64,000 nt of DNA. It comes from a virus. Position 1 is the stretch's first letter, and the number at the start of each line of letters is the position of its first letter. The notes under the pieces were generated by a model that saw only the letters and a list, made by a program, of their open reading frames with translations, ran no database searches and was not told where the DNA came from. Position numbers and translations under genes: made by a program. Where the stretch lies: the IMG/VR virus record IMGVR_UViG_3300019776_000693, positions 1 to 64,000 of that record; one strand, given 5' to 3'. Positions 10,017-24,348 of the stretch are shown piece by piece.

Positions 10017-10144
10017 TGACAGAACAAGAGAAAGAAATAATGATTCTTAAATTTAGGCGAACAGATAGTTGGAGATTTGCGGATTATTTGTTTTGGAGAT
10101 ATTTAGTAGAATCGGCGGAAAAAGAAAATACACAGAAAGAATAA
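10016..10144 (+). CDS. small charged hypothetical protein (42 aa)
   Basis: Charged helical peptide (TEQEKEIMILKFRRTDSW) with an AATG overlap to the gene before. Its existence helps place the DNA polymerase start downstream at 10168 rather than in the overlapping upstream frame. Confidence 0.5.
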   Translation: MTEQEKEIMILKFRRTDSWRFADYLFWRYLVESAEKENTQKE

Positions 10145-10167
10145 AAAACAGAAAAATTAAAATAGAT

Positions 10168-12252
10168 ATGGAGTTAGATAAGAGAGTATGGTTATATGAC
10201 ATAGAAACTCTTTCAAATTGCTTTACGTATACTGCAATCGATAGAAATTCAAATGAAATTATTAAATTTATAATATGGAAAGAAAATAATCAAATTTATG
10301 AATTACTTACTCACTTAAATAATTGTGCAGGACAAATCGGATTTAATAATTTAAATTTTGACTATCCTGTAATTCATTATATTATTAAAGAGCGCAACAA
10401 ATTAGTTTCTTTAGATGGGGATAAAATAGCTAAATTAATTTATAAAAAAGCTCAGTCTGTTATTTCTCAAGAATATTCCGCAATTAAAGAGGACGAAGTA
10501 ATCATTCCTCAGTTGGATTTATTTCGTATTTGGCATTATGATAACAAAGCTCGTATGACAGGACTCAAGAAATTAGAAATAGCTATGAATTTTCCTAATG
10601 TTCAAGACATGCCTTATCCTCACGACTATAAAGTAAAAACAAAGAAAGAAGTAGAAGAAATATTAGATTATAACTTAAATGATGTTGAAGCAACAAAAAA
10701 ATTCTATGAAAAAACAAAAGATAAATTAGAATTAAGAAAAGGACTTCAAACAAAATATGGGCTTAACTGTTTAAATTATCCCGATAGTAAAATTGGAGAA
10801 CAATTAATGTTAAAATTATATTGTCATTATACTCAACAAGACGAGGAAAAAATCAAAAGACTTAGAACCAAAAGAAATTTATTTAAATTTTCAGAATGTA
10901 TTCCTAATTATATTAAATTTGAAACTCTTGAATTTAATCAATTGTTGGATTATTTAAAAGGAATTGAAGTTACCGAATTAAAAGAATCGTTTAAATATAG
11001 TTTTGAATATAATGGATTTACTTTTGATTTAGGTACAGGCGGAATACATGGGTGTATAAAACCAGGAGTTTATAAATCTAATGAAAATGAAATAATTGTA
11101 GATGCTGATGTGGCTTCTCTATATCCTTCGTTAGCAGTTACATTGGGATTATACCCTGAACATTTAGGAAGTCAATTCCCTCAAATTTATGAAGAAGGTA
11201 TTTTAAAACCAAGATTATTTGCAAAAGAAAAAATAGATGGTAAAATGCGTGACCCCATCATGGCAGACGGTTTCAAACTTTCGGCTAACAGTGTTTACGG
11301 AAAAAGTAATAGTGAGTACAGTTTTTTATGTGACCCATTATATACTTTAAAAACAACTTTGGCAGGACAAGTAGCTTTATGTATGCTATCAGAAATGTTG
11401 ATGACAAAAGTGCCTAATCTAACAATGCTTCAAATTAACACTGATGGGTTAACTGTTTCTATCCCTGTTGAACATAAAAGATTATATTGGGAAATTTGTC
11501 AGGAATGGGAAGCCAAAACAGCATTAGTTTTAGAGTATGTTGCTTATTCTCAAATGATTATTCGTGATGTAAATAATTATATTGCGGTTACAGAAAAAGG
11601 AGGAAAAATAAAATACAAAGGAACATTCAAACCTAATAGTGAAATGATTAAAGATGGAGAGTATCATAAATCTTTAAGTCAAGGTATTGTTTCTTTAGCA
11701 GTTTCTGATTATTTTTTGAAAGGAATTCCTGTAGAAAAAACAATTAAAGAAAATAAAGATATTTATCTATTTTGTAAAACATTTAATTCAACTCATGGTT
11801 GGGTATGTGAAATTTTAGATATTGACGATAAAGGTAACGAATCAAATCATCAAAAACAACAAAAAACAAATAGATACTTTTTATCTAAAAGTGGTTCTCG
11901 TTTTCGTAAATTAAAAGATGACAGAATCATTGAAGTGGAAGCTAATAAAACAGTTAAAATTTTCAATAAATATTATGAAGCTTCTTTTGAAGAATATGAT
12001 ATAGATTATGATTATTATATTGATGAGTGTTACAAAATTATTCATCGAATTGATGGAACAGAAGAAAGATTAGAACAAGAACGAAAAGAATTACGTGAAA
12101 AGGCTAAAAGAGATAAAGAAGAAGAAAATTATTTAAAATTTTGTGTAAATAAAATACCAACACAATTACAGTATAACACTTATAACAAAGAATGGTTACA
12201 AGAAAAATACGGAATTCCTGCGGAAATTAAATCATCAAAAGTTAAAATATAG
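10168..12252 (+). CDS. DNA polymerase, family B, with 3'-5' exonuclease
   Basis: The phage replicative polymerase, 694 aa from the chosen ATG. Exonuclease motifs: LYDIETL (Exo I, D11/E13), NNLNFDYP (Exo II, near 60) and YNLNDVEA (Exo III, near 168). Polymerase motifs: A is DADVASLYPSL (near 312), B is KLSANSVYGKS (near 370), C is INTDGLTV (near 424), where the first Asp of the usual DTD is Asn. An upstream TTG-initiated extension would add 33 residues before the exonuclease domain but overlaps another small gene, so the ATG is preferred. No terminal-protein region is obvious. A lysine/glutamate-rich helical thumb follows near 610-640. Works with the helicase and primase in this arm. Confidence 0.95.
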   Translation: MELDKRVWLYDIETLSNCFTYTAIDRNSNEIIKFIIWKENNQIYELLTHLNNCAGQIGFNNLNFDYPVIHYIIKERNKLVSLDGDKIAKLIYKKAQSVISQEYSAIKEDEVIIPQLDLFRIWHYDNKARMTGLKKLEIAMNFPNVQDMPYPHDYKVKTKKEVEEILDYNLNDVEATKKFYEKTKDKLELRKGLQTKYGLNCLNYPDSKIGEQLMLKLYCHYTQQDEEKIKRLRTKRNLFKFSECIPNYIKFETLEFNQLLDYLKGIEVTELKESFKYSFEYNGFTFDLGTGGIHGCIKPGVYKSNENEIIVDADVASLYPSLAVTLGLYPEHLGSQFPQIYEEGILKPRLFAKEKIDGKMRDPIMADGFKLSANSVYGKSNSEYSFLCDPLYTLKTTLAGQVALCMLSEMLMTKVPNLTMLQINTDGLTVSIPVEHKRLYWEICQEWEAKTALVLEYVAYSQMIIRDVNNYIAVTEKGGKIKYKGTFKPNSEMIKDGEYHKSLSQGIVSLAVSDYFLKGIPVEKTIKENKDIYLFCKTFNSTHGWVCEILDIDDKGNESNHQKQQKTNRYFLSKSGSRFRKLKDDRIIEVEANKTVKIFNKYYEASFEEYDIDYDYYIDECYKIIHRIDGTEERLEQERKELREKAKRDKEEENYLKFCVNKIPTQLQYNTYNKEWLQEKYGIPAEIKSSKVKI

Positions 12253-12284: not shown

Positions 12285-12292
12285 TATCTTTG
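12285..12292 (+). promoter_or_regulatory. promoter -7 box for the AP2 endonuclease gene
   Basis: TATCTTTG, fitting TAnnTTTG; the -33 TTG is not evident at 19-20 bases upstream. It lies just after the polymerase gene and starts a transcript with a long structured leader. Confidence 0.6.
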
Positions 12293-12307
12293 TAAAGTAA
12301 ATTAGAA

Positions 12308-12417
12308 ATACGAGCCTAATTTATAATAAAGATATTAGAAAATTTTTAAAAAAGTCTATTCATTGTGTGCTCGTATCACCTTTGTTTAGGCTTTTTCTGT
12401 TTTTATAAGCCAAAATT
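12308..12417 (+). ncRNA. structured 5' leader, copy 1 (pseudoknot-like RNA motif)
   Basis: Perfect 8-bp pairing ATACGAGC (12308-12315) with GCTCGTAT (12369-12376) encloses 53 bases. The bases directly after the 5' arm, GCCTAA (12314-12319), pair with TTAGGC (12386-12391) directly after the 3' arm, giving H-type pseudoknot order. TTAGGCTT can instead pair with AAGCC (12407-12411) next to the start codon, so alternatives compete. AAGATATTA occurs at 12329-12337. The same layout and spacing recur at 22935-23050 before another homing endonuclease gene. Probably a cis-acting control of translation or transcript stability. Confidence 0.6.
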
Positions 12418-13161
12418 ATGGGTAAAATAAAAAATAGAGTAGGTGAAAAGTACATCACAAACGAAGGATACGAAATAGAAATTATTGAATATTTTGGAGC
12501 ATTAAATTGCACCATTAAATTTAATGATAAATTAAATACCACACTTTACAATGTCGCATATCATCAAACAACTAAAAGAAATATTGAAAATCCAAATCAT
12601 CCTAAAACATATAACATAGGATATATGGGAATTGGTAAATTTCTTTCGAAAAAGAATAATATTAATACTCAACATTATGTAATATGGTCTGGTGTTTTAA
12701 GAAGATGTTATAATGAAAATGAGAGACATAAATATCCATCTTATAAAGCATCTACTGTTTGTGAGGAATGGCATAATTTTCAGAATTTTGCTGAATGGTT
12801 TGAAGAAAATTATGTAGAAGGGTTTGAATTAGATAAAGATATTTTATATAAAGGTAACAAGATATACTCCTCTGAAACATGTTGCTTTGTACCAAAAGAG
12901 ATAAACTTACTTTTTGTAAATAGTTGTAATAAACTTAGTGATTTACCTCAGGGAGTAATAAAACATAAAAATAAATATAGAGCTAGGTTTGGTAAAGATA
13001 GAAAACATATAGGTTTATTTGATACCTCCGAAGAAGCTTTTCAAGCCTATAAAACTGCAAAAGAAAAATACATAAAAGAAGTGGCAGATAAATGGCGAGA
13101 TTTAATTGATAAAAAAGTTTACCGAGCAATGTATAACTATCAAGTTGAAATAACGGATTAA
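12418..13161 (+). CDS. putative homing endonuclease, HNH-like with C-terminal AP2 domain (paralogue of 1103-1696)
   Basis: 247 aa. The central part matches the protein at 1103: WSGVLRRCYNENERHKYPSY, TVCEEWHNFQNFAEWFEENY, FELDKDILYKG, CCFVPKEIN. The C-terminal AP2-like segment is YRARFGKDRKHIGLFDTSEE, then AFQAYKTAKEKY, and both end QVEITD. It has an extra 60-residue beta-rich N-terminal domain (EKYITNEGYEIEIIEYFGA) absent from the other copy. It follows the polymerase gene and has its own promoter and structured leader. Inferred to be a free-standing homing endonuclease; catalytic residues are not certain. Confidence 0.7.
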   Translation: MGKIKNRVGEKYITNEGYEIEIIEYFGALNCTIKFNDKLNTTLYNVAYHQTTKRNIENPNHPKTYNIGYMGIGKFLSKKNNINTQHYVIWSGVLRRCYNENERHKYPSYKASTVCEEWHNFQNFAEWFEENYVEGFELDKDILYKGNKIYSSETCCFVPKEINLLFVNSCNKLSDLPQGVIKHKNKYRARFGKDRKHIGLFDTSEEAFQAYKTAKEKYIKEVADKWRDLIDKKVYRAMYNYQVEITD

Positions 13162-13191: not shown

Positions 13192-13252
13192 TTGTGTGTT
13201 AGGATTATATGTTGTATATTTGTAAAAAGAATCTGTTTTTTATTCTTTTTTC
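13192..13252 (+). promoter_or_regulatory. promoter and T-rich leader of the HD-domain gene
   Basis: TTG at 13192-13194, 20-base spacer, TATATTTG at 13215-13222. The leader then has AAAAAGAAT and ATTCTTTTT flanking a TCTGTTTTT loop, a possible hairpin, and ends in a CGCGAGAAATT core shared with leaders at 13935 and 24155. Confidence 0.75.
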
Positions 13253-13285
13253 GCGAGAAATTAACAAAATTTAACAATAAATATT

Positions 13286-21637: not shown

Positions 21638-22876
21638 ATGAGTAAAAACAAAAACCGCAGATATCGTCTAAAAGATATAGAAGTTGAAAAATTAGGTTTG
21701 TCTCCGAATATTAGCGGAAGATATAGGCTTTCTAAAGAACAGGAAAAAGAATTACAAATAATTAGAAATGTTGACAGTGATTTAAAAAATGATATAGCAA
21801 CATATTCTATTAATTATAAAAACGATAAAGAGAAATCACAAAGAGGTTTTACAGCTATTGATGATAGTGGACAATTAATGTCAATAGAACGTTATTGTGA
21901 ATATTATGGATTAGATGTATCAAAAATACGAAGTTATAAATTGATTTCTCATACGGGATTACCCTTTTATAACTGTGTTTTCTATGAAGAAGTTATTGAA
22001 TCTGCTGTAACAGAAGAAGAATTAAAATTATTAATTTTAAAAGGTTTTAAAGACATAGAATACACCAAGATATACAAAGATAACAAAAATAAAATTGGAG
22101 TTGTTAAAATCGCAGATTTACATCTAGGAAGTTATGTTGATAATTTAATCCGTACTAAAAATTTTTCTATTGATATTTTAGCAAATAAATTATTAGAAGC
22201 TGTAGAAGATATCAATGAAAGAAACTATTCTGAGGTACATGTACATATTCTAGGAGATTTAATTGAATCTTTTACGGGACTTTCTCATAAGAATACTTGG
22301 AAAGGGTTAGATAAAGCTATGGTTGGGGCAGAAGCAGTAAAATTAGTTGTTCAAATTTTACATGATAATTTTTTATCTAAAATTACTAATCTTGGGGAAG
22401 TTAAAGTTGTGGCAGGGAATCACGATAGGGTGACAAGTGACAATAAAGAAGATGTTCAAGGAGGTGCTGCAAGTTTAGTTTGTTGGGGATTAGAATTGAT
22501 TGGTTATTCTGTTGAATTCAACCCTTTAGTTATTACACATACTATTGGAAAAATATCTCATATTTTAACACATGGTCATCACGCATTATCTAAAAAATCT
22601 ACAAAACAATTATGTTGGGACTATGGTATTCAAGGAAATTATAATTTAATTTGTGAAGGGCATTTACATAGTATTATTCAAAAATTAAATATAAACCAAC
22701 GTGACAATTATCAAACTATAAAAGATGATGCTGTAGACCATAGAAGAATGAATTGTCCATCTTTTTTTACAGGAAATTTTTATAGTGAATCTTTAGGTTA
22801 TACTTCTGAGAGTGGTTTTGTTATTGTAGAAGATAATGGTAAAGGCGTTCCTAATGTATTTTATTATGCGATTTGA
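21638..22876 (+). CDS. calcineurin-like metallophosphoesterase with N-terminal HTH-like region
   Basis: 412 aa. Dimetal motifs in order: VVKIADLHLGS (D-x-H), HVHILGDLIES (GD), VVAGNHDR (GNHD), SHILTHGHH (H-G-H) and CEGHLHS (GHxH). The first 140 residues contain a basic segment and SIERYCEYYGLDVSKIRSYK, resembling a helix-turn-helix. The catalytic part resembles SbcD/Mre11-type nucleases and is common in crAss-like and other phages near replication genes. Likely a DNA or nucleotide phosphodiesterase in replication or repair. No SbcC-type partner is seen. Confidence 0.88.
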   Translation: MSKNKNRRYRLKDIEVEKLGLSPNISGRYRLSKEQEKELQIIRNVDSDLKNDIATYSINYKNDKEKSQRGFTAIDDSGQLMSIERYCEYYGLDVSKIRSYKLISHTGLPFYNCVFYEEVIESAVTEEELKLLILKGFKDIEYTKIYKDNKNKIGVVKIADLHLGSYVDNLIRTKNFSIDILANKLLEAVEDINERNYSEVHVHILGDLIESFTGLSHKNTWKGLDKAMVGAEAVKLVVQILHDNFLSKITNLGEVKVVAGNHDRVTSDNKEDVQGGAASLVCWGLELIGYSVEFNPLVITHTIGKISHILTHGHHALSKKSTKQLCWDYGIQGNYNLICEGHLHSIIQKLNINQRDNYQTIKDDAVDHRRMNCPSFFTGNFYSESLGYTSESGFVIVEDNGKGVPNVFYYAI

Positions 22877-22896: not shown

Positions 22897-22927
22897 TTGT
22901 ACAATTAATTTTTATTTTGTATACTTG
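22897..22927 (+). promoter_or_regulatory. promoter of the GIY-YIG gene
   Basis: TTTG ending at 22899, 20-base spacer, TATACTTG at 22920-22927 (one mismatch to TAnnTTTG). Starts a transcript with a 120-base structured leader. Confidence 0.65.
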
Positions 22928-22934
22928 TGCTAAT

Positions 22935-23050
22935 AACTTCTTGATGCGAACACTAAGTTAATTTTAAGATATTATTTTTTACCGAGGAACTTCTTTAAAC
23001 AGCTATTCGCATTAGTTGTTTTTAGAAGTTTTCTCATTTTTTAAAACATA
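22935..23050 (+). ncRNA. structured 5' leader, copy 2 (pseudoknot-like RNA motif)
   Basis: ATGCGAA (22944-22950) pairs with TTCGCAT (23006-23012) across 55 bases; ACTAA (22952-22956) pairs with TTAGT (23012-23016), the same pseudoknot order as at 12308. AAGATATTA is at 22966-22974, 22 bases from the 5' arm and 40 from the 3' arm (21 and 40 in copy 1). An extra outer stem AACTTCT/AGAAGTT (22935-22941, 23024-23030) closes this copy. The arms differ in sequence between copies but keep pairing, which supports an RNA structure. Confidence 0.6.
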
Positions 23051-23962
23051 ATGAAAAAAGAAATTATTTGCGGAATCTACAAAATCACTTCTCCATCAGG
23101 TAAAATTTATATTGGACAAAGTAATAATATAACGAAAAGATGGACTAATTACAAAAGTATAAGTAAAAGCAATGATGGGCAACCTAAATTAAAAAACTCT
23201 TTTGATAAATACGGAGTAAACACTCATATATTTGAAGTGATTGAGGAGTGTTGTTTTGAAAACTTAGATTGCAGAGAACGTTATTGGCAAGATTTTTACA
23301 ATGCAACAAATACAGGGTTAAATTGTGTATTAACATCTTGCGGAGATGTGCCTAAAGAAATAGTATCAAATAAAGGAGAAAATCATTCAAGAGCTAAAGT
23401 TTATATAAATTTAGAAACAGGAGTTTTCTATCATGGTATTAGAGAAGCCTCTGAATCTATTTCTCATATAAGCTACAACTCTCTAAAATTTATGTTGCTT
23501 GGTAGATATCTAAACACTTCATATATAGTCAACGCCGATGATTACGTAAATAATCCTGAAACCTACTTACAAGAAAAAGAATATAAAAAAGTAATAAATG
23601 TAAAAACTAGAGAGTTGTACAAATCTGTGATGGATGTAGCTAAGATTTATGGTATAGAAGTTAATAAACTTAGAGACAGGATAACAGCAAAAAATAATAA
23701 GTCAGGTTTTATGTTTTTAGATGAATACGAAAACCACCCAAATAAAGATTCTATATTAAGTAAACCAAAAAATAAAACTAGTAAGTATGTAGGTATTTAC
23801 TATTGTAAAAAAGATAGGAAATGGTTAGCTAAATATAAAAAACAAGGTAAAAATTATACCATAGGTTATTATCCTACAGAAGAGGATGCTTATGCAGGAT
23901 ACAAAGACTATTTTAATAAGTACCCTGAATTAGAGCCAAAAGGTTTCAAACCATTAATTTAA
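23051..23962 (+). CDS. GIY-YIG homing endonuclease with C-terminal DNA-binding modules
   Basis: 303 aa. N-terminal GIY-YIG nuclease: CGIYKITSPSGKIYIGQS (GIY and YIG strands), catalytic Arg in NITKRWTNYK, and a late Glu in LDCRERYWQDFYNA. The middle holds SHISYNSLKFMLLGRY and NVKTRELYKSVMDVAKIYGI, which resemble NUMOD-type helix-turn-helix repeats. The C-terminus (YYCKKDRKWLAKYKKQGKN, then YYPTEEDAYAGY) is AP2-like, as in the two HNH/AP2 proteins. The gene is a self-contained cassette: own promoter, structured leader and terminator. No intron is evident. Confidence 0.9.
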   Translation: MKKEIICGIYKITSPSGKIYIGQSNNITKRWTNYKSISKSNDGQPKLKNSFDKYGVNTHIFEVIEECCFENLDCRERYWQDFYNATNTGLNCVLTSCGDVPKEIVSNKGENHSRAKVYINLETGVFYHGIREASESISHISYNSLKFMLLGRYLNTSYIVNADDYVNNPETYLQEKEYKKVINVKTRELYKSVMDVAKIYGIEVNKLRDRITAKNNKSGFMFLDEYENHPNKDSILSKPKNKTSKYVGIYYCKKDRKWLAKYKKQGKNYTIGYYPTEEDAYAGYKDYFNKYPELEPKGFKPLI

Positions 23963-24094: not shown

Positions 24095-24164
24095 TTGTTT
24101 ATATTATTTATTGTTTGTATATTTGTAAAATAAATCTTTCTGCTGTTTCTTTTTATGGCGGAAA
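24095..24164 (+). promoter_or_regulatory. promoter and leader of the methyltransferase operon
   Basis: TTG at 24095-24097, 20-base spacer, TATATTTG at 24118-24125. Leader carries CTTTCTGCTGTTTCTTTTT followed by ATGGCGGAAATT, like the leader at 13918-13947. The preceding 90 bases (24008-24094) hold nothing I can assign. Confidence 0.75.
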
Positions 24165-24180
24165 TTAAAACTTAGAAATT

Positions 24181-24348
24181 ATGAAAATATTTAAAATTAT
24201 ATTAGAGCAATTAATACCATGTAAAAAGAAATCTTTTGCTTTATCTGAGGATACAGATAGTATGGAATATAAATGGTATCTTTATTTTAAAGATGAAGTT
24301 GATAAAGAATTTAAAAAAGAACAATATATAAAAGATAATCCATGGTAA
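24181..24348 (+). CDS. small hypothetical protein (55 aa)
   Basis: First gene after the promoter. Basic start then acidic/aromatic (MEYKWYLYFKDEVDKEF). Overlaps the methyltransferase start by seven bases. Unknown. Confidence 0.6.
   Translation: MKIFKIILEQLIPCKKKSFALSEDTDSMEYKWYLYFKDEVDKEFKKEQYIKDNPW

Follow-up and report, generated by a model that had tools for sequence, protein, structure and literature searches.

A leader RNA with a terminator-like, putatively pseudoknotted hairpin precedes homing-type endonuclease genes of probable Bacteroidota phages

The first 64,000 nucleotides (nt) of the 130,620-base IMG/VR virus record IMGVR_UViG_3300019776_000693, hereafter the window, carry two copies of a leader RNA, each placed before a gene coding a homing-type endonuclease. 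The design of the leader is kept while its sequence varies. It combines a putative promoter box, a leader of ~100 nt and a terminator-like hairpin (P2) followed by a run of U (U-run), the loop of the hairpin being complementary to a 5' segment of the leader (helix S1). The boxes found before the leaders are of the TAnnTTTG type, which we take to be the Bacteroidota-type -7 box, and for this reason the host is probably a Bacteroidota bacterium. The leader apparently represents a previously undescribed class, wider than the two window copies, and looks like an RNA brake on selfish genes. The proposal of an earlier note on this DNA, that structured leader RNA precedes unrelated mobile endonuclease families in Bacteroidota phages, is supported by the analysis.

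The elements of both copies and the genes behind them, with the basis of each assignment in brackets, are:

12285-12292, plus strand: putative -7 promoter box TATCTTTG, copy 1 (sequence)
12308-12315, plus strand: S1 5' arm ATACGAGC, copy 1, covarying core 12308-12314 (covariation; shuffle p 0.0025)
12329-12337, plus strand: AAGATATTA in the spacer, copy 1, a weak motif (sequence)
12349-12358, plus strand: P2 5' arm AAAAAGTCTA, copy 1 (RNA folding; differing arms of relatives still pair)
12370-12376, plus strand: predicted P2 7-nt apical loop CTCGTAT, identical to the S1 3' arm, copy 1 (folding)
12387-12396, plus strand: P2 3' arm TAGGCTTTTT, copy 1 (folding)
12392-12404, plus strand: U-run, putative intrinsic terminator, copy 1 (sequence)
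12418-13161, plus strand: HNH/AP2 homing-type endonuclease gene, 247 amino acids (aa), copy 1 (phrog_953, E 1.5e-67)
22920-22927, plus strand: putative -7 promoter box TATACTTG, copy 2 (sequence)
22944-22950, plus strand: S1 5' arm ATGCGAA, copy 2, which G-U pairs could extend to 22941 (covariation)
22966-22974, plus strand: AAGATATTA in the spacer, copy 2, a weak motif (sequence)
22987-22994, plus strand: P2 5' arm GAACTTCT, copy 2, continued by an inner arm at 22997-23005 (RNA folding)
23006-23012, plus strand: predicted P2 7-nt apical loop TTCGCAT, identical to the S1 3' arm, copy 2 (folding)
23013-23021, plus strand: inner 3' arm TAGTTGTTT, copy 2 (folding)
23024-23031, plus strand: P2 3' arm AGAAGTTT, copy 2, then U-rich to 23042 (folding)
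23051-23962, plus strand: GIY-YIG endonuclease gene with C-terminal AP2, 303 aa, copy 2 (Pfam GIY-YIG E 1.5e-6, AP2 E 3e-6)

The two copies share one order of elements: the -7 box, 15 nt, the S1 5' arm, an AT-rich spacer of 33-35 nt, the P2 5' arm, the S1 3' arm, the P2 3' arm, the U-run and 14-22 nt before the ATG. The box 15 nt ahead of both leaders was absent from the earlier note. In RNA folding carried out blind to S1, P2 is predicted to be a long hairpin interrupted by an internal loop, and its apical loop of 7 nt coincides exactly with the S1 3' arm (CUCGUAU in copy 1, UUCGCAU in copy 2); in copy 1 this loop is closed by GTG at 12367-12369 and CAC at 12377-12379. Compared to shuffled sequences the whole leader has a folding z of -4.70 in copy 2 and -1.4 in copy 1, while the P2 hairpin piece alone is near -4 in each. 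The shuffle p of S1 is 0.0025 in copy 1 and 0.035 in copy 2. Because the arms succeed each other as S1 5', P2 5', S1 3' and P2 3', the two helices would build an H-type pseudoknot if formed at the same time. Support for these interleaved helices comes from covariation for S1, and from folding and the maintained pairing of changed arms for P2.

The evidence for S1 at the level of the family is far stronger than the shuffle p of single copies. In a structure-free MAFFT alignment of ten leaders from the polymerase/exonuclease group, S1 was the best helix of an all-against-all scan of column pairs. Its pairing is 98.6%, compared to 82.5% in shuffles; 11 cells are changed on both sides (2.9 in shuffles) and the covariation score is 0.476 (0.136 in shuffles). 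None of 500 shuffles reaches the S1 values for pairing, double change or covariation, and the pairing is lost when the partner is slid by 1-3 columns. Compensatory changes are found at three S1 pairs, and the outermost pair of S1 occurs as AU, UA, CG and GC; in alignment A5 the covarying columns are 22-28 with 93-99. Formal covariation evidence covers S1 only; the P2 arms are misaligned by MAFFT. These arms differ among close relatives yet pair, as in copy 1 (AAAAAGTCTA/TAGGCTTTTT), L058 (AAAAGTCTG/CAGACTTTT) and L259 (AAGTCTTTACA/TGTATAGACTT).

Searches with the downstream proteins, a two-helix descriptor and reading by eye, which included the same sites in contigs of polymerase and exonuclease relatives, yielded 43 curated leaders (38 after removal of near-duplicates), mostly from IMG/VR contigs; about eight more came from genome scans. 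A scan of viral contigs with the DNA pattern of the polymerase-site leader returned three known members only, the rest being mostly unrelated matches. A TAnnTTTG-type box precedes most of the 43 leaders, with S1 a median of 10 nt and often 15 nt further on. P2 is present in the predicted minimum-energy fold of 42 of them (median hairpin energy -16 kcal/mol), the T fraction is about 0.6-0.8 across the 10 nt that follow it, and the hairpin ends 5-39 nt (median 14) ahead of the ATG. A stable hairpin and a U-run thus lie between promoter box and open reading frame (ORF), the layout of attenuator leaders. A generic terminator scanner flagged neither window copy, because it accepts loops of at most 8 nt and no internal loop. 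In each leader the S1 3' arm sits almost centrally in the P2 loop, with nearly equal distances on its two sides (r = 0.86), and the predicted apical loop, with a modal size of 7 nt, has a mean overlap of 88% with this arm, values that may be somewhat inflated by curation based on complementarity. Individual S1 p-values are below 0.05 in 35 of the 43 leaders, a proportion that is biased because several leaders were picked by the descriptor requiring S1. The earlier note had made its claim depend on further copies in other phages and on arms that stay complementary as they vary; many such copies were found, and the arms of relatives behave in this way.

The scans at genome scale covered nine phage records (about 1.1 Mb). 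Of the hairpins with five T behind them, 16 are located between a promoter box and an ORF, and 6 of these 16 have at least 7 pairs between loop and upstream sequence. Elsewhere this is the case for 13 of 1,093 hairpins with five T (Fisher p 8e-8), and several of those 13 are leaders whose promoter box escaped detection. A refined search of the nine records gave 261 raw hits compared to 232 in one shuffled set, and the raw hits are therefore mostly due to chance. With an ORF of at least 80 aa required within 60 nt there were 26 hits and 0 in shuffled DNA; part of this difference is due to the scarcity of long ORFs in the latter, so that the identity of the genes is stronger evidence. The genes are 14 of endonuclease type, four homologous winged-helix-like, two homologous primase-like and six unrelated ones, probably chance hits. 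Two of the 14 endonuclease-type genes (L284 and L299:13802) match only zinc-ribbon or Stc1-like domains, their nuclease function being a guess. The earlier note had suggested a covariance-model search for hits upstream of homing endonucleases. Such a model, built from the ten leaders with S1 as sole structure and searched over 1.16 Mb, gave 14 hits at E<=1e-3, each directly before an endonuclease-type ORF. Nine of the hits had served to train the model; the five additional ones are L280 minus, L284 minus, L252, L212 and L299, the last two being close relatives. Beyond these 14 hits no region in the 1.16 Mb was better than E = 0.1, and leaders again account for the hits that come next, L229 (0.14) and L256 (0.2).

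The pairings read in the window by the earlier note had different fates. Its first helix was confirmed on re-reading in copy 1, where ATACGAGC (12308-12315) pairs with GCTCGTAT (12369-12376) across a 53-nt loop, and in copy 2 (ATGCGAA, 22944-22950, with TTCGCAT, 23006-23012). Its second helix (GCCTAA/TTAGGC and ACTAA/TTAGT, here called X) is significant in 1 of 43 leaders, with a median p of 0.53; the actual second helix is P2 (12349-12358 with 12387-12396; 22987-22994 with 23024-23031). A pairing of TTAGGCTT with AAGCC near the ATG is not conserved among relatives: L058 keeps S1 yet has CAGACTT at the TTAGGCTT position, and L064 has GGGATTT opposite ACGCC. The box AAGATATTA does occur at 12329 and 22966, at matching distances, but by itself it is not unusual in the window (6 observed, 4.3 expected), and its candidacy as a conserved protein or promoter box is weak at best. 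A post hoc comparison shows modest enrichment of the looser ARATATT, present in 12 of 38 leader spacers where 2.7 were expected. The structural genes on the opposite strand, checked by eye, have no AAGATATTA-like box.

The leader precedes at least five unrelated nuclease families. The types represented are GIY-YIG, HNH/AP2, NUMOD4-HNH-AP2, EndoVII, DUF723 with T5orf172/MUG113, LAGLIDADG (Pfam E 7.8e-8) and NucS-C-like (E 4e-4, under the Pfam cut-off). In the window, copy 1 and its gene come directly after the DNA polymerase gene (10069-12252), and the GIY-YIG gene of copy 2 is placed after an exonuclease gene (21638-22876). The catalytic domains of the two proteins differ, as the earlier note held in calling them unrelated nucleases; both share a C-terminal AP2, which it had assigned to the first protein only and which in that protein is under Pfam's cut-off (E 2.5e-4). 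Both have nuclease domains typical for homing endonucleases (HNH phrog_953; GIY-YIG Pfam) and by domain appear to be homing-type endonucleases, their mobility being suggested indirectly by occupied and unoccupied sites after the polymerase gene.

The leader is not specific to endonucleases, because it is found also before the four winged-helix-like and the two primase-like genes. Four of the nine records have a winged-helix-like gene (L051, from this phage, L249, L256 and L266), with 27-46% identity to that of L256; the encoded proteins have no confident Pfam or PDB match. The S1 arms of their leaders all differ (GTAGTGC, GTGGAAACC, CTAGGAATC, CTCTCAC). One of them is a third leader copy in this phage, located outside the window at 83,900-83,967 of the record (L051 400-1347 with its gene), ahead of a gene coding a 278-aa winged-helix-like protein (84,011-84,847 of the record, G000). 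The primase-like genes (L286 8938; L295 minus strand) code BT4734-like_N with PriCT_1. Their leader has a 13-nt loop made of a 9-nt S1 arm and UUUA, and possibly forms a second subclass. L280 minus and L284 minus have nearly identical leaders (GTTCGAG/CTCGAAC) but differ in the protein encoded behind them, which looks like an exchange of either the leader or the downstream gene.

Of the polymerase loci, nine, that of the window included, have an endonuclease-type gene with a leader of this design before it. Six loci that have no endonuclease have no leader either (L059, L061, L065, L066, L067 and L071), their next gene lying -10 to +13 nt from the polymerase stop, which indicates that leader and gene appear or vanish together at this site. 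L069 has a 74-nt gap and a short untranslated region (UTR) after the polymerase gene. The idea that the element travels with endonucleases, put forward in the earlier note, holds for this locus but is limited by its presence before non-nuclease genes, and the leader does not in general follow its nuclease family. Four HNH/AP2 paralogues in the same genome, 49-57% identical to the copy 1 protein, are without leader (G000 1112-1693, 92781-93515, 118676-119392 and 128449-129180), as are all 43 relatives of this protein found in viral contigs; these absences rule out a leader that travels with the HNH/AP2 family. In L086 (11116-11400) the ORF of a GIY-YIG endonuclease is broken at 42 aa while the promoter and hairpin of its leader are retained; S1 has there a C-A mismatch by eye, and L086 was excluded from the counts.

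The leader class probably acts in cis as a 5' attenuator RNA that would limit or delay the expression of the nuclease. With a terminator-like hairpin between promoter and gene as the recurring part, attenuation is the simplest function. Most transcripts, initiated at the own promoter or reading through from the upstream gene, would stop at P2, leading to weak expression downstream. S1 and P2 would form together, S1 locking the hairpin and strengthening the stop, until a phage factor or a change of the RNA polymerase during infection lifts the lock. The nuclease would then be made late, when replicating genomes can serve as repair templates. The stop of transcription at P2 is the most likely of these steps, the S1 lock and its release being clearly less certain. 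S1 must contribute something since it is maintained by compensatory change, and it can coexist with P2 because it is confined to the loop without invading the stem. Fully paired 7-nt loops are known from kissing complexes, for which loops of this size are well suited. This and the possible coexistence of the two helices favour a lock over a mutually exclusive switch. Endonuclease genes would have gained the leader repeatedly, or swap it, and the replication-type genes that bear it may be its original setting. Several points weigh against attenuation, which is argued here from sequence, folding and covariation. The U-run is poor in some members (L118, L060). Expression could be lowered by a plain terminator alone, which leaves S1 in need of an extra role. 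A hairpin placed 14 nt ahead of the AUG may hinder initiation in Bacteroidota and act on translation, and many homing endonucleases of these same phages have no leader.

A role in translation is a serious rival, albeit an unlikely one: transcription would not stop, and the knotted hairpin near the AUG would block ribosome loading as in T4-type homing endonucleases, a possibility consistent with the median of 14 nt between P2 and the ATG. Leader RNA structures likewise precede the free-standing or intron homing endonuclease genes of the T4 type (I-TevI, I-TevII, I-TevIII, segB, mobE of Aeh1). In T4 such hairpins repress the gene, cover the ribosome site and contain a late promoter, while in seg43(25) of Aeromonas phage 25 a strong hairpin lies just upstream of the ribosome site and not over it; these structures are thought to confine the nuclease to late infection (PMC2988022). 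The parallel with T4 drawn in the earlier note stands in purpose but not in architecture. Here the hairpin stops 5-39 nt before the ATG in all 43 leaders, a range which, like the absence of any arm pairing with the start codon, fits poorly with a ribosome block and leaves the start region free. The promoter box, of the known Bacteroidota type, lies upstream of both arms, although a phage promoter of another type may sit in the AT-rich spacer, and the hairpin is terminator-like with a putatively pseudoknotted loop. The U-run right after P2 is a terminator signature that translational control does not need. A two-state switch, in which a ligand or protein would stabilise S1 as an antiterminator acting against the terminator, in a riboswitch-like or protein-sensing manner, is distinctly unlikely. 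S1 could form first, as its 3' arm is transcribed before the P2 3' arm, and among known systems the HMP-PP (thiS) riboswitch comes closest in combining a functional terminator loop and a pseudoknot. That riboswitch has a terminator hairpin, a functionally important loop and pseudoknot potential, but its ligand-binding loop sequence is conserved and its pseudoknotted state disrupts the terminator (PMC6478431). In the leaders described here S1 takes the loop and not the P2 stem, so that the sequence does not make the two exclusive, and the loop varies freely among leaders provided that its 5' partner follows; there is no conserved aptamer sequence, no spacer 6-mer above shuffles and no Rfam hit. 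An antiterminator pairing with a terminator arm was likewise not found, the X helix being significant in 1 of 43 leaders, and a terminator/antiterminator switch through X was dropped.

The terminated leader might alternatively be a stable small RNA that pairs in trans with other copies, giving a dose feedback like that of plasmid copy control, which is improbable. It is more improbable still that replication-type genes and homing endonucleases share a brake in which terminated leaders measure gene dose through pairing with those nascent leaders that bear the same 7-nt loop address. In favour of pairing in trans are the suitability of 7-nt loops for kissing and the sharing of the leader class by winged-helix-like and primase-like genes. 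Leaders of plasmid rep genes such as that of pT181 use RNA-controlled attenuation, with a terminator in the leader of a mobile element's gene and long-range pairing of leader RNA, the trigger being an antisense RNA and the antiterminator pairing involving the terminator stem (PMC4878617). In the phage leaders the long-range pairing is with the terminator loop, and neither an antisense gene nor a target was identified, no systematic search having been made. Intramolecular pairing should win over pairing in trans, and the two window copies and the third copy differ in their S1 arms. If dose were sensed, mobile nucleases would be coupled to the number of genome copies in the manner of plasmid replication genes. 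It is highly improbable that the leader is an RNA partner of the nuclease, either a guide as omegaRNA/HEARO or an inhibitory RNA as type III antitoxins. The succession of promoter, structured RNA and nuclease gene resembles both systems, and HEARO/omegaRNA (IscB) is also a structured RNA directly upstream of an HNH nuclease gene. Here, by contrast, one RNA design is found before genes of at least five nuclease families unrelated to each other and before genes that code no nuclease; there is no IscB, no Rfam match and no conserved primary sequence for contact with a common protein, and close homologues of the copy 1 protein have no leader. The probability is negligible that the arms are shared by chance or because one leader was copied from the other, without RNA function. 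The leaders at polymerase and exonuclease sites are visibly homologous, but S1 has compensatory changes at three pairs and leaders of unrelated sequence have the same geometry; the S1 covariation, the genome scan and the covariance-model results refute this reading.

No family of Rfam 15 matches the leader, the sole hit being a neighbouring tRNA, and no description of it was found in the open-access literature, a coverage that leaves out subscription papers and preprints. Homing endonucleases need restraint or harm their host phage, T4 being the known example. The leader is a different RNA solution, and its recurrence in front of at least five nuclease families without relationship suggests one regulatory part that selfish genes acquire again and again. 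The leader can be used to look for mobile genes in phages of Bacteroidota, and a terminator class with a variable, self-complementary loop could serve as a tunable part. It also raises the question of whether a pseudoknot in a terminator loop leads to more or less termination.

The terminator part recurs without S1 before some GIY-YIG genes and before nrdB. In Bacteroidota phages a short UTR takes the place of the leader before many GIY-YIG genes, and in crAss001 and 'frurule' there is no room for one, the upstream gene abutting or overlapping the GIY-YIG gene. Others have a leader made of promoter, hairpin and U-run; a terminator-like hairpin without S1, which begins directly behind the -7 box and extends to the ATG, is found before GIY-YIG genes in L328, L332, L339, L345, L366, L368 and L371, and the cultured isolate Flavobacterium phage FL-1 has the promoter-hairpin-GIY-YIG order, S1 being absent. 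In four of the nine records the leader of nrdB (ribonucleotide reductase small subunit) consists of a strong, plain hairpin with a U-run behind a promoter box and lacks S1; three phages have near-identical versions of it. Their positions are:

L261, from 5491, minus strand: nrdB hairpin leader
L278, 16665: nrdB hairpin leader
L282, 14140: nrdB hairpin leader
L053, 568: nrdB hairpin leader

Immediately downstream of each of the two endonuclease genes of the window, at 13215-13285 and 24118-24181, a further promoter box is succeeded by a short leader in which a T-run and a GCGA/GCGG-AA motif lie ahead of the ATG.
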